From contig NZ_HE978580.1 in assembly GCF_000311865.1 (NCBI RefSeq), forward strand, positions 194,413-258,412: a stretch of DNA of 64,000 nucleotides, in the 5' to 3' direction. Positions 61,141-63,999 of the stretch are shown one piece after another (the stretch's first letter is position 1; every line of letters begins with the position of its first letter). This DNA is from Peptoniphilus obesi ph1 (GTDB lineage Bacteria; Bacillota; Clostridia; Tissierellales; Peptoniphilaceae). The translations under genes were made by a program, and so were the position numbers. Below the pieces are notes generated by a model. That model ran no database searches. It was not told where the DNA came from and was given only the letters and a program-made list of their open reading frames with translations.

Positions 61141-63999
61141 TTAATCTTTTTTATAAAATTCACTTTCAAATCCATCTGCATCAAGAATAAGTCCAGGTGC
61201 CCAGCTAGGAAGTAAGGACATTATTTGATTTATTTCCTCGATGCTAGATGAATCACTTTCTATTACAACTTCATCATGAATATGCATGACGATATTAAAT
61301 CCTTTTTCCTCAAGTCTCATCATAGTCTCAGCTAAAATATCTCTGGCTATGGCTTGAACTATGTTTTCTACAAATTTTCCACCATAGGATTCAATTTTGT
61401 CCCACTTGTTTCCTAATACAACTCCTTCATAGACTACTGATTCTCCACCAAATCGATTCATCCCGATTTTTGCTTTTGGATAAGCTAGTCTTCTTTTTGA
61501 GGGTAGTTGTATAAAAAGAATGCCTTTTTCATAGCTAATAACTAGGCTCTTATATTTTTCTTTAGTTCTAGTCTTTACAACTCTTTTTACGACTGAATCT
61601 ATGTCCCACCAAAGACTCACTATATTTGGATTAGCCTCTCGCCAGGAATCAACGATTGATTGAAGTTCATCTTCAGATAAACCCATCTCAATACCACCCA
61701 TTGCTTTAAGAGCACCTAAGGCTCCTTGGTAGCCACAGTTGTGAACTAATTTCCCTGATACGGTAAAACGGTTATTCTTTCCGGCATTTCGTATATCATA
61801 AAGTCTAGTCTTGCTTCTATACCTTTCCAATTTTTTCTTTTCTCGAATACAGCTAATTCTGCATCTTCTATAATTTCGTCTCGGCTTAATCCTTTTGAAA
61901 GTTTCCTTATAACAACACTTCGTGCATAAGGCCAGTATTTTTGATGAAATTCTGTTAATACAGTATTTCTCTTGTTCGAAGCATTCTCTATACGAGTCGC
62001 AAATCTTAAGTTGCCTCTTTCGTAATGCCCATTGTTGTCTATTCTGTCTATTTCTAGTTCTCTTTTTGGCAGTCCAAATTTTTCGATTAAATAAAGACCT
62101 GCCTCTAGAATTGATGGAAACTTGAACTTTATTCCTCTTTCTCCATAGTTTTTGAACTCTGGATCTTTTGGGTTGGTACACCTTTGCTTTGCTGCTGTTA
62201 GCCTTCTGTCCAACCATCGTGGAATTTGTCTTGGCTGGGAGCAAGCTTGACATCCTTTTGACCTTCCTGTCGTTAAATTTCCCCTGTCTTGCCATTGAAT
62301 GCTTCCACATCCTTGACATCTTGTGAGGACATAACAAGAATTCCAGTTTTTCGCCCATCTTTTTTCTGGACTTATAATCTTCACCCACCCATATTGCTCT
62401 CCTACCATCTCCTGATTGTAGGAGATGTGCTCCGCTGGTGGCAGCTTCTCCAAATTGTATTGGCTTTTCTTGCCCCTCGATCCATACGATATGGTCTTTT
62501 GTTGCTCTAAGCCCATCATATTCAATCACTTCTCCTATCCCTTTATATATAACTCCATCATGTGAAACCCAGTTTTCTCCATCCCATAATTTATGAGCTT
62601 TTGTAAGTTTTTCTATAGGAACTAACCCCTTATCTGTAAGAACCAATTCGCCTTCAGCAATACAGGCTAAAGTTGCTATCTTTCCTTTTTGCCTTAGATG
62701 ACCATTTACTCCATGCTTTTCAACTGGCACACCAAACATCCTTGATGCTGTTCTGCAATAGATATCTTCTCCATTTTCAAAGGCATCCAGTACCCATTGT
62801 TCTCCTGCAATCCATGCAAGGACACGGGCCTCTATTGCTGAAAAGTCAGAAATAATAAACCTGGTGCCTTCTTTTGCTATAAAGGCTGTCCTTATTAATT
62901 GGGATAAAATATCAGACGGGGATTCATATAGAATCTCCATCGTTTCATAATCTCTATTTTTTACAAGACTCCTAGCTAGTTCTAAATCTTTTAGATTGTT
63001 TCTTCTTAAGTTTTGAACTTGAATAAGCCTGCCTGAATACCTTCCAGTTCTATTTGCTCCATAGAATTGGATCAGACCTCTTGCTCGATTATCTGTTCCT
63101 CTTACATTTTTCATAGCGTCATATTTTCTAACTGAGGACTTAGATAATTCTTGTCTAAGTTCCAGCACTTCTTTAATATCTCCTTCAACATTTTTAAGAG
63201 CAGACTCTACATCTTTTTTAGCTAAGGAATCGATCTCTAAGCCTTTCTTATTTAGCCATTCTTTTAGCTGTAAGAGAGAATTTGGATTTTCAAGACCAGT
63301 TAATTCTATGGCTCTGTCCATATTTTCTTCTCGTAAGATTTCATCAAATTTAATAGCTGAATCAACTAAAACTTCATCAATTAATATTCCTCTGTCATTG
63401 ATGTTCTGGTCTACCCAGTAGTTTTCCCATTCTGATTGAGGCATAGGAAATGCTGATAATTTTTTCTTTATTGCCATTTCTGTTTCCACATCTCTTTGGT
63501 TATATTCCTTAAAGGTAGACCACTTTCCCAAATCATGATGTGGTAGATTTCTTGTCCTCATACCATTGGTTTTAGTAGGTTTACATGGAATAGAAAAATA
63601 TCTTATAAGAGCTTTCCCTTCATTCATCTTTTGCTTATCTAGTTTTAAAACCTCTCCGACTTTTTCAAGCGATAGAGGTAACCCCAGATAGGCTGACCAA
63701 ATCATAGTGCAGTACCAACCTTTTGGATTTAGCCTTTTACCAAGAAATCTTGAGAGGCACACCCTTTCAAAGTTTGCGTTAAAGGCCCACTTTTCTATAT
63801 TTTCATCACTAAGTGCTGATAATATTTCTTCAGGAATAATCTCTCCACTTGCCAAATCTATGACCTTAACTTCTCCATCATCAATAGAATAGGCAAAGAG
63901 GAGGATTTCAAAATCCTCGCTCTCGGCATATTTGTATACACCACTTTTGCCTAAATCAATTGAAGAGAATGTTTCAAGATCTATGGACAATCTCTTCAT
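61141..63999 (-). CDS. Phage family A DNA polymerase interrupted by an intein
   Basis: The 952-codon frame encodes a PolA-type replicase of 643 residues plus an intein of 309. Residues 1-190 hold the 3'-5' exonuclease (SIDLETF, then NANFERVC and YNQRDVETE). The polymerase part has FISDFSAIEARVLAWIAG (motif A), the O-helix RQKGKIATLA/CGYQGALGAL (motif B, split by the intein) and MHIHDEVVIE (motif C). Joining the pieces restores LACGYQG, the expected active-site sequence. MKRLSIDLETF is the natural N-terminus, so the gene is complete within one base of the window edge. Confidence 0.93.
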   Translation of the reverse strand: MKRLSIDLETFSSIDLGKSGVYKYAESEDFEILLFAYSIDDGEVKVIDLASGEIIPEEILSALSDENIEKWAFNANFERVCLSRFLGKRLNPKGWYCTMIWSAYLGLPLSLEKVGEVLKLDKQKMNEGKALIRYFSIPCKPTKTNGMRTRNLPHHDLGKWSTFKEYNQRDVETEMAIKKKLSAFPMPQSEWENYWVDQNINDRGILIDEVLVDSAIKFDEILREENMDRAIELTGLENPNSLLQLKEWLNKKGLEIDSLAKKDVESALKNVEGDIKEVLELRQELSKSSVRKYDAMKNVRGTDNRARGLIQFYGANRTGRYSGRLIQVQNLRRNNLKDLELARSLVKNRDYETMEILYESPSDILSQLIRTAFIAKEGTRFIISDFSAIEARVLAWIAGEQWVLDAFENGEDIYCRTASRMFGVPVEKHGVNGHLRQKGKIATLACIAEGELVLTDKGLVPIEKLTKAHKLWDGENWVSHDGVIYKGIGEVIEYDGLRATKDHIVWIEGQEKPIQFGEAATSGAHLLQSGDGRRAIWVGEDYKSRKKMGEKLEFLLCPHKMSRMWKHSMARQGKFNDRKVKRMSSLLPAKTNSTMVGQKANSSKAKVYQPKRSRVQKLWRKRNKVQVSINSRGRSLFNRKIWTAKKRTRNRQNRQQWALRKRQLKICDSYRECFEQEKYCINRISSKILALCTKCCYKETFKRIKPRRNYRRCRISCIREKKKLERYRSKTRLYDIRNAGKNNRFTVSGKLVHNCGYQGALGALKAMGGIEMGLSEDELQSIVDSWREANPNIVSLWWDIDSVVKRVVKTRTKEKYKSLVISYEKGILFIQLPSKRRLAYPKAKIGMNRFGGESVVYEGVVLGNKWDKIESYGGKFVENIVQAIARDILAETMMRLEEKGFNIVMHIHDEVVIESDSSSIEEINQIMSLLPSWAPGLILDADGFESEFYKKD
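61738..62664 (-). other. Intein in DNA polymerase (309 residues), with most of its length also coding in another frame
   Basis: The intein runs from Cys446 to Asn754 of the polymerase frame. Block A is CIAEGELVLTDKGLVPIEKL and block B is GLRATKDHIVWIEG with the TxxH. Block F is TRLYDIRNAGKNNRF and block G is SGKLVHN, followed by extein Cys755. All residues for cis-splicing are present (Cys1, TxxH, penultimate His, terminal Asn, Cys+1). The centre has no LAGLIDADG or HNH motif in this frame; instead it is unusually rich in Lys and Arg, as if its sequence were set by the other frame. Confidence 0.92.
61746..62525 (-). CDS. HNH homing endonuclease gene nested out of frame inside the intein
   Basis: This 259-residue protein is read in the +1 frame relative to the polymerase. 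It has a zinc ribbon with CQGC (70-73) and CQAC (92-95), and a linker KQRCTNPKDPEFKNYGERGI. The HNH catalytic segment LEIDRIDNNGHYERGNLRFA (157-176) is of the type in free-standing phage homing endonucleases. A TTG start has AGGAG six bases upstream; that site codes GIGEV in the intein frame. The stop TAG lies within the intein's GKLVHN block. A later ATG (codon 40) has GGAG touching it, so it is a poor start. Confidence 0.87.
   Translation of the reverse strand: MNMMGLEQQKTISYGSRGKKSQYNLEKLPPAEHISYNQEMVGEQYGWVKIISPEKRWAKNWNSCYVLTRCQGCGSIQWQDRGNLTTGRSKGCQACSQPRQIPRWLDRRLTAAKQRCTNPKDPEFKNYGERGIKFKFPSILEAGLYLIEKFGLPKRELEIDRIDNNGHYERGNLRFATRIENASNKRNTVLTEFHQKYWPYARSVVIRKLSKGLSRDEIIEDAELAVFEKRKNWKGIEARLDFMIYEMPERITVLPYQGN

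Follow-up and report, generated by a model that had tools for sequence, protein, structure and literature searches.

The window analysed here is a stretch of 64,000 nucleotides from Peptoniphilus obesi ph1 (contig NZ_HE978580.1 of assembly GCF_000311865.1, positions 194,413 to 258,412 of the forward strand). Prophage genes for terminase, portal, head and tape measure proteins, a helicase and a primase are located at its end, and among them lies the gene of a family-A DNA polymerase. The polymerase frame contains a predicted intein, and a gene for a likely HNH-type homing endonuclease (HEN) is nested within the intein in the +1 frame (Table 1).

Table 1. Features of the polymerase locus, with positions in the window
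Feature	Position	Strand	Remarks
Family-A DNA polymerase ORF with in-frame intein, 952 aa	61141..63999	-	DNA_pol_A 8.6e-19; phrog_17 5.3e-138
Polymerase exteins	62665-63999 and 61141-61737	-	
Predicted intein, 309 aa, 927 nt, polymerase residues 446-754	61738..62664	-	C1, TxxH, HN, +1 Cys
Intein N-terminal splicing part, residues 1-86, blocks A and B	62407..62664	-	
Intein-frame linker, residues 87-280, overprinted on the HEN	61825..62406	-	predicted disordered, pLDDT <50
Intein C-terminal splicing part, residues 281-309, blocks F and G	61738..61824	-	pLDDT 81-91
Nested HNH-type HEN gene from the conserved ATG, 257 aa plus stop	61746..62519	-	
HEN-frame ORF from TTG, 259 aa/codons, +1 versus polymerase	61746..62525	-	TTG two codons before the ATG
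AGGAG, Shine-Dalgarno-like, within the intein coding sequence	62532..62536	-	6 nt before TTG, 12 nt before ATG
HEN zinc ribbon, C68, C71, C90, C93 (numbered from ATG)	62241..62318	-	four Cys invariant, 35 and 33 aligned members
HEN HNH-like region, NYGERGI ... DRIDNNG..Y..GNLRF ... N..N	61974..62213	-	

The intein is placed in polymerase motif B, directly before the conserved C-G-Y, and its borders in the window polymerase read ...KIATLA^CIAEG...KLVHN^CGYQG. Exteins and intein form one continuous frame, as in class 1 inteins, and an intein-free allele exists, with empty sites in two relatives (KIAELALGYGG in L146, KVAELACGYGG in L147). The class 1 residues C1, T55, H58, H308 and N309 are invariant in 49 members; within the C-terminal part Y289, D290, H308 and N309 do not vary across members. 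A Cys occupies the +1 position in 102 of 107 loci, the remaining five being cases of a mis-set intein end. A Hint fold was found for the intein in the predicted structure. Blocks A, B, F and G, which the preliminary description had read from the sequence, can be made out by visual inspection and in the fold, but hardly register in profile libraries: TIGR01445 was matched by only one of 48 members (E 0.0088), and the best match of the intein in the PDB had an E value of 0.096. The element is predicted to be a cis-splicing class 1 intein; the polymerase left after splicing would have 643 residues (952-309), the size also given previously.

The HEN of the window matches phage HNH endonucleases (phrog_374, E 4.7e-23; phrog_2081, E 2.3e-10), and this kinship together with the zinc ribbon argues for placing it among the HNH homing endonucleases. 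Pfam yielded no match for the window HEN, HNH_3 being found in just one of 35 members. There were next to no matches to PDB sequences, and the predicted HEN model gave weak fold matches to solved HNH enzymes. Where the canonical HNH motif has its first His, this HEN appears to have an Asp. We assume its activity from that of its family, and the +1-frame product is likely a separately made HNH-type endonuclease.

Relatives were collected from ten stretches of phage records, the window's own genome and three collection scans, yielding 117 loci; the phage loci are a sample that covers few of 435 matching records. Among the 118 entries (L001-L117 plus the window) both intein ends were located in 115, the exceptions being L011, L027 and L028. 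Eight were dropped: L010 (the same as L005), L069 (a run of N), L071 and L076 (contig ends), L092 (N-part replaced) and L019, L039 and L077 (intein frame closed by a frameshift). The 107 kept loci, which include the window and copies of the same phage from different collections, form 63 clusters (<90% intein-frame identity) that share ancestry, and cluster counts are not independent. Five loci have a mis-set intein end, and in L112, L020, L021, L024 and L026, among others, the automatic anchor mis-set the first residue; the frame is unaffected in either case.

All 107 kept loci have zero stops in the intein frame. Stops in this frame of close homologues had been named beforehand as an observation that would speak against a nested gene; a closed frame was found only in the three frameshifted loci L019, L039 and L077 (3/115) and in two split forms, L143 and L144, described below. 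The polymerase frame is open through the HEN in 99/99 usable full-length loci. Of these, 95, the window included, have both frames open with no break in the HEN core; the core is interrupted in L002 and L051, and L113/L114 were scored as truncated, with an internal deletion that shifts their listed positions in this count. A HEN is carried by 56/63 clusters, in phase +1 in 44 and in phase +2 in 12. Phase +1 is found mainly in phages and prophages of Bacillota, and in Gardnerella too, phase +2 in Jerseyvirus, Sodalis phage SO-1, EBPR siphovirus 2 and metagenome phages. One branch of the HEN tree with 100% bootstrap separates 42 phase-1 rows from 12 phase-2 rows. In the other 7/63 clusters most of the HEN is deleted; the deletions keep the intein frame, and these HEN-less copies retain the splicing blocks. 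No relative with an in-frame HEN, the other observation named beforehand, was present among the usable loci: phase-0 HEN matches are only L019, L039 and L077, all broken by frameshifts, and L088 is a near-identical, intact copy of L039. Within the phylum, 3 of 398 genomes have the HEN, the window's own among them.

That so long an open frame would not arise by chance had been argued before, and codon shuffling bears this out. With the HEN protein of the window fixed and its synonymous codons shuffled, a mean of 15.7 intein-frame stops appeared and none of 2000 shuffles left the frame open, which rules out a chance open frame. By the same shuffle, the intein frame should hold 510 stops over the 44 phase-1 clusters and 54 over the 12 phase-2 clusters, with 0 observed in both groups; extein codon usage in place of shuffling raised the expectation to 758 over the 56 clusters. 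The unused third forward frame contained 730 stops versus 698 expected in phase 1 and 244 versus 232 in phase 2. Reverse frames were not stop-free in any cluster; observed and expected stops were 441 versus 396 and 410 versus 512 in phase 1, and 102 versus 95 and 125 versus 113 in phase 2, the third reverse frame being invariant under the HEN synonymous shuffle.

Substitutions were compared in 19 independent phase-1 pairs, counting isolated changes only. Among HEN-silent changes 484 altered an intein residue and 43 were silent in both frames; they created 0 intein-frame stops versus ~61 expected, while 16.5 third-frame stops were observed versus 15.8 expected. Four phase-2 pairs, too few to tell, had 0 stops versus 2.8 expected and 5 versus 4.8 in the control. 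That stops are selected against and that substitutions follow this pattern indicates that the intein frame is translated through the HEN gene. The HEN is under purifying selection according to the substitution comparison of relatives. Constraint differs along the element: upstream of the HEN start it is seen in the intein frame only, in the centre in the HEN only, and near block B in both. Linker hydropathy was -0.98 versus -0.95 in codon shuffles for phase 1 and -0.21 versus -0.24 for phase 2; strong selection on linker composition was rejected, as hydropathy and charge are near the values dictated by the HEN sequence. Both frames had been proposed to be maintained by selection. Selection in the central overlap is on the HEN sequence and on the absence of intein-frame stops, but not on the intein residues there. 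The central intein polypeptide thus has the look of a by-product, with freedom from stops as its only requirement.

The conserved HEN start is the ATG at 62519, with ATG in 38/44 phase-1 clusters and ACG in 6/44. The phase-1 intein codons for R/K-E-V-I-x-Y spell a GGAGGT-like sequence followed by this ATG. At least 5 nt of contiguous anti-Shine-Dalgarno (SD) match precede the start in 36/44 phase-1 clusters, compared with 11.5% of 1712 background ATGs. The Glu codon is GAG in 34/41 (17.9 expected), the Tyr codon is TAT in 38/44 (22.5 expected), and both occur together in 33/41 clusters versus 9.2 expected, all these codon-choice and SD tests ignoring kinship among clusters. GAG enrichment is absent at nine other counted Glu positions of the intein N-part. 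From this codon-level evidence we infer internal initiation of the HEN at the SD/ATG. Initiation is less clear in the six ACG clusters and in the phase-2 copies, in which ATG is found in 12/12 clusters and an SD match of at least 5 nt in only 2/12. Concerning the AGGAG-TTG start assigned in the preliminary description, a TTG two codons before the ATG is present in 9/44 phase-1 clusters, and AGGAG 6 nt before TTG is found only in the window's cluster; the HEN would have a start of its own, with the conserved ATG in this role.

Ribosomal frameshifting from the polymerase/N-intein frame could produce the HEN instead of internal initiation, and its location in the +1 or +2 frame of the host as well as the 6/44 phase-1 clusters without ATG would fit such a route. 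Nevertheless, we consider it improbable. The SD sequence and ATG codon choice favour initiation, and in 25/44 phase-1 clusters a HEN-frame stop lies only 1-2 codons upstream of the start position, so that there is little room for frameshifting: the shift would need to fall in or after this gap. It is also very doubtful that the element is a decayed canonical intein with a formerly in-frame HEN shifted by indels at both ends, even if the HENs of inteins are described as domains nested at a single conserved site of insertion (PMC6801210). The two phases (+1 in 44, +2 in 12 clusters) separate in the HEN tree, the intact HEN core in 95/99 full-length loci is under purifying selection, and no in-frame ancestor was seen among the collected loci; as a description of a distant origin the idea may hold. 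A canonical large intein with its HEN in frame between blocks B and F is contradicted by phase +1 or +2 in all 56 clusters, and sequencing indels at both ends were rejected with the phase being fixed across these clusters.

Two further explanations dispense with protein splicing. A self-splicing RNA intron (group I or II) with an HNH gene, the open polymerase frame being incidental, is suggested by the annotation of Sodalis phage SO-1 gp38/gp39 as a polymerase with a 'type I self-splicing intron' and an HNH endonuclease, and by HNH families such as phrog_2081, which reside in phage polymerase genes within group I introns. An intron would be indifferent to stops, which are absent from and selected against in the intein frame while the third frame is full of them; moreover, the N-part residues evolve as protein and the Hint fold and catalytic residues are present. 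Scans for Rfam introns, run without a positive control, found none at E 1 in L001, L004, L006, L007 and L008 and none at E 5 in the window region. No Rfam match to the annotated intron turned up in SO-1 itself, and we regard an intron as extremely unlikely. The other explanation draws on ShiLan, a phage methylase insertion with an HNH gene out of frame, and on the Pacc40 gp60 insertion (Arsenault, Gosselin, Gogarten 2025, PMC11855218). An intein or intron status of ShiLan could not be supported by these authors, who did not see a ribosome binding site and reported the insertion mainly in mycobacteriophage methylases, with similar elements elsewhere. A hidden insertion of this kind would stay in the polymerase, unspliced, as a tolerated loop; the out-of-frame HNH logic is the same, and in both cases the HNH stop is at the very end of the insert. 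However, the window insert has splicing residues and an intein fold and sits in motif B directly before CGY, and HEN-less copies retain the splicing blocks, which makes an unspliced loop highly improbable.

We are left with high confidence in a predicted intein of a prophage polymerase that is overprinted with a likely separately translated HNH gene, whose product would home the whole element into intein-less polymerase genes. The intein halves are predicted to fold into one splicing domain across the 194-residue linker, and excision would release the 643-residue polymerase. Ribosomes would start the HEN at the internal SD/ATG written into intein codons. The HEN would cut intein-free polA near motif B, and repair would copy the element in. 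After decay or loss of the HEN, the copies to survive would be those whose deletions preserve the intein frame, giving mini-inteins, and a split intein with the HEN between its halves would be an alternative outcome; derivatives seen among the loci point to both.

The architecture extends beyond this site. A protein search with the polymerase gave 2291 matching proteins across the region that bears the intein, and among 120 listed of these matches four of seven proteins inspected contained further inteins. A search seeded with one further intein revealed this architecture at another polA site, located before CVQAIARD (e.g. L119-L124), as well as in SF2/SNF2 helicases (L125, L126, L128; L132, L142; L134, L136-L138; Pfam on representatives). 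In this second search 21/26 loci, with near copies among them (L134/L136/L137; L130/L133), were shuffle-tested and had 0 intein-frame stops versus 196 expected; omitted were L129 (the same as L128), L135 (on the L089 contig), L141, L143 and L144. L141 is a form with most of the HEN deleted. In L143 and L144, N-intein, HEN and C-intein are in three frames, the intein frame is closed and the host gene is in two; these loci look like the split-intein counterpart. When ten overprinted HENs served as the query, 29 loci among the best 80 of at least 594 relatives were overprinted in a long host ORF, all out of frame; three of their contigs had already been counted and two are apparent copies of another. 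An intein C-block match was found in 29/29, short in L211; the C-block pattern is the firmer one, the N-block pattern being loose and sometimes misplaced. The other 51 of the best 80 are free-standing or other, one of them, at a contig end, with a C-block, and none has a HEN ORF of more than 353 codons.

Overprinted inteins probably constitute a third class of mobile inteins, common in phages, beside the in-frame and the split ones. Such a class would have originated from the out-of-frame entry of an HNH gene, complete with its start, into a mini-intein, after which the intein frame had to remain open and became a free-floating disordered linker. The design would have arisen or spread at several polA and SF2 helicase sites and in both alternative frames, and it would feed mini-inteins, when the HEN is lost, and split inteins, when the frame is closed and the C-half obtains its own start.

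In fractured genes, reportedly described by Dassa et al. 2009, a free-standing endonuclease lies between the two parts of a split intein. They resemble the window element in this separate endonuclease, but the host gene is broken there; here the polymerase is a single ORF with no break, and a split intein or fractured gene was rejected for the window copy. The HNH-bearing group I introns in phage DNA polymerase genes of SPO1 and Bastille (PMC11878797) share a related HNH family (phrog_2081) and the host gene family phrog_17 with the window element, but splice at the RNA level, and the host frame need not stay open. Large mobile inteins such as PI-SceI (PMC6801210) likewise have HEN coding DNA between blocks B and F of the Hint domain. 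Their splicing and HEN activities reside in one polypeptide, whereas in the window two polypeptides would arise from overlapping frames and the precursor holds a predicted-disordered linker in place of a HEN domain. ShiLan/Pacc40 gp60 is similar as an open insertion in a phage gene with an HNH-type endonuclease in an alternative frame and likely homing. The window family shares the out-of-frame HNH in an open insertion with it but not the lack of a splicing domain: a Hint domain flanks the overprinted HNH, the SD/ATG is conserved in phase-1 copies, and the overprinted inteins reside in polA and helicases. The earlier statement that no nested, frame-shifted intein endonuclease had been described was too strong, with the arrangement recurring in phages and ShiLan, which has no splicing domain, as a 2025 precedent for the out-of-frame HNH insertion. 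The nested frame-shifted HEN itself, first noticed in the window, was confirmed. No description of an overprinted intein was found in the CC-licensed PMC papers searched, and an earlier description may exist elsewhere.

If true, this arrangement would change the usual picture of intein mobility, with splicing and endonuclease in one polypeptide, since an intein can carry an endonuclease gene without being fused to the HEN. It hints at how full, mini and split inteins may be converted into one another, and the long disordered linker tolerated between splicing halves would be of interest to intein engineers. The locus is also a measurable natural experiment on overlapping genes: over most of the overlap, selection tunes the sequence in one frame, and in the other it merely keeps stops out. 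The overprinted class would have escaped notice because gene calling yields the host ORF alone, and endonuclease surveys on called genes would miss these elements. Among the examined phage records with a full-length nested gene, SO-1 is the only one in which it is annotated separately, and there it belongs to a type I self-splicing intron.

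In two collected relatives (L143 and L144) the polymerase is broken into an N-polymerase piece carrying the N-intein, an HNH ORF that overlaps both neighbours, and a C-intein piece continuing into the C-polymerase with a start of its own. This arrangement looks like the counterpart of the overprinted intein in split-intein form. At L028, an HNH ORF overlaps both flanking pieces of a polymerase-like gene, and no intein was seen in this stretch. The intein-like stretch of L077 has a broken frame, and its C-half matches the window's site.

Coordinates of the related loci
Locus	Positions	Feature
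L143	1539-4396	broken polymerase, three parts
L144	2972-5820	broken polymerase, three parts
L077	1579-2384	intein-like stretch, GIY-YIG-like endonuclease in other frame
L028	2282-4815	HNH ORF between two polymerase-like gene pieces

The record of Sodalis phage SO-1 (gp38/gp39; L007) places a nested HNH within a type I self-splicing intron; judged by our sequence analysis, this copy looks like an overprinted intein. Four polymerases of 1205-1579 aa (P0060, P0061, P0063 and P0091) each carry two or three inteins at differing sites, the final site being likewise overprinted or mini (endonuclease lost). In L092 and protein P0211, a sigma-70-region-4-like stretch with the endonuclease fused behind it replaces N-intein and N-polymerase, a fusion reflecting either rearrangement or a chimera. 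The endonuclease homologue P0123 contains internal duplications.
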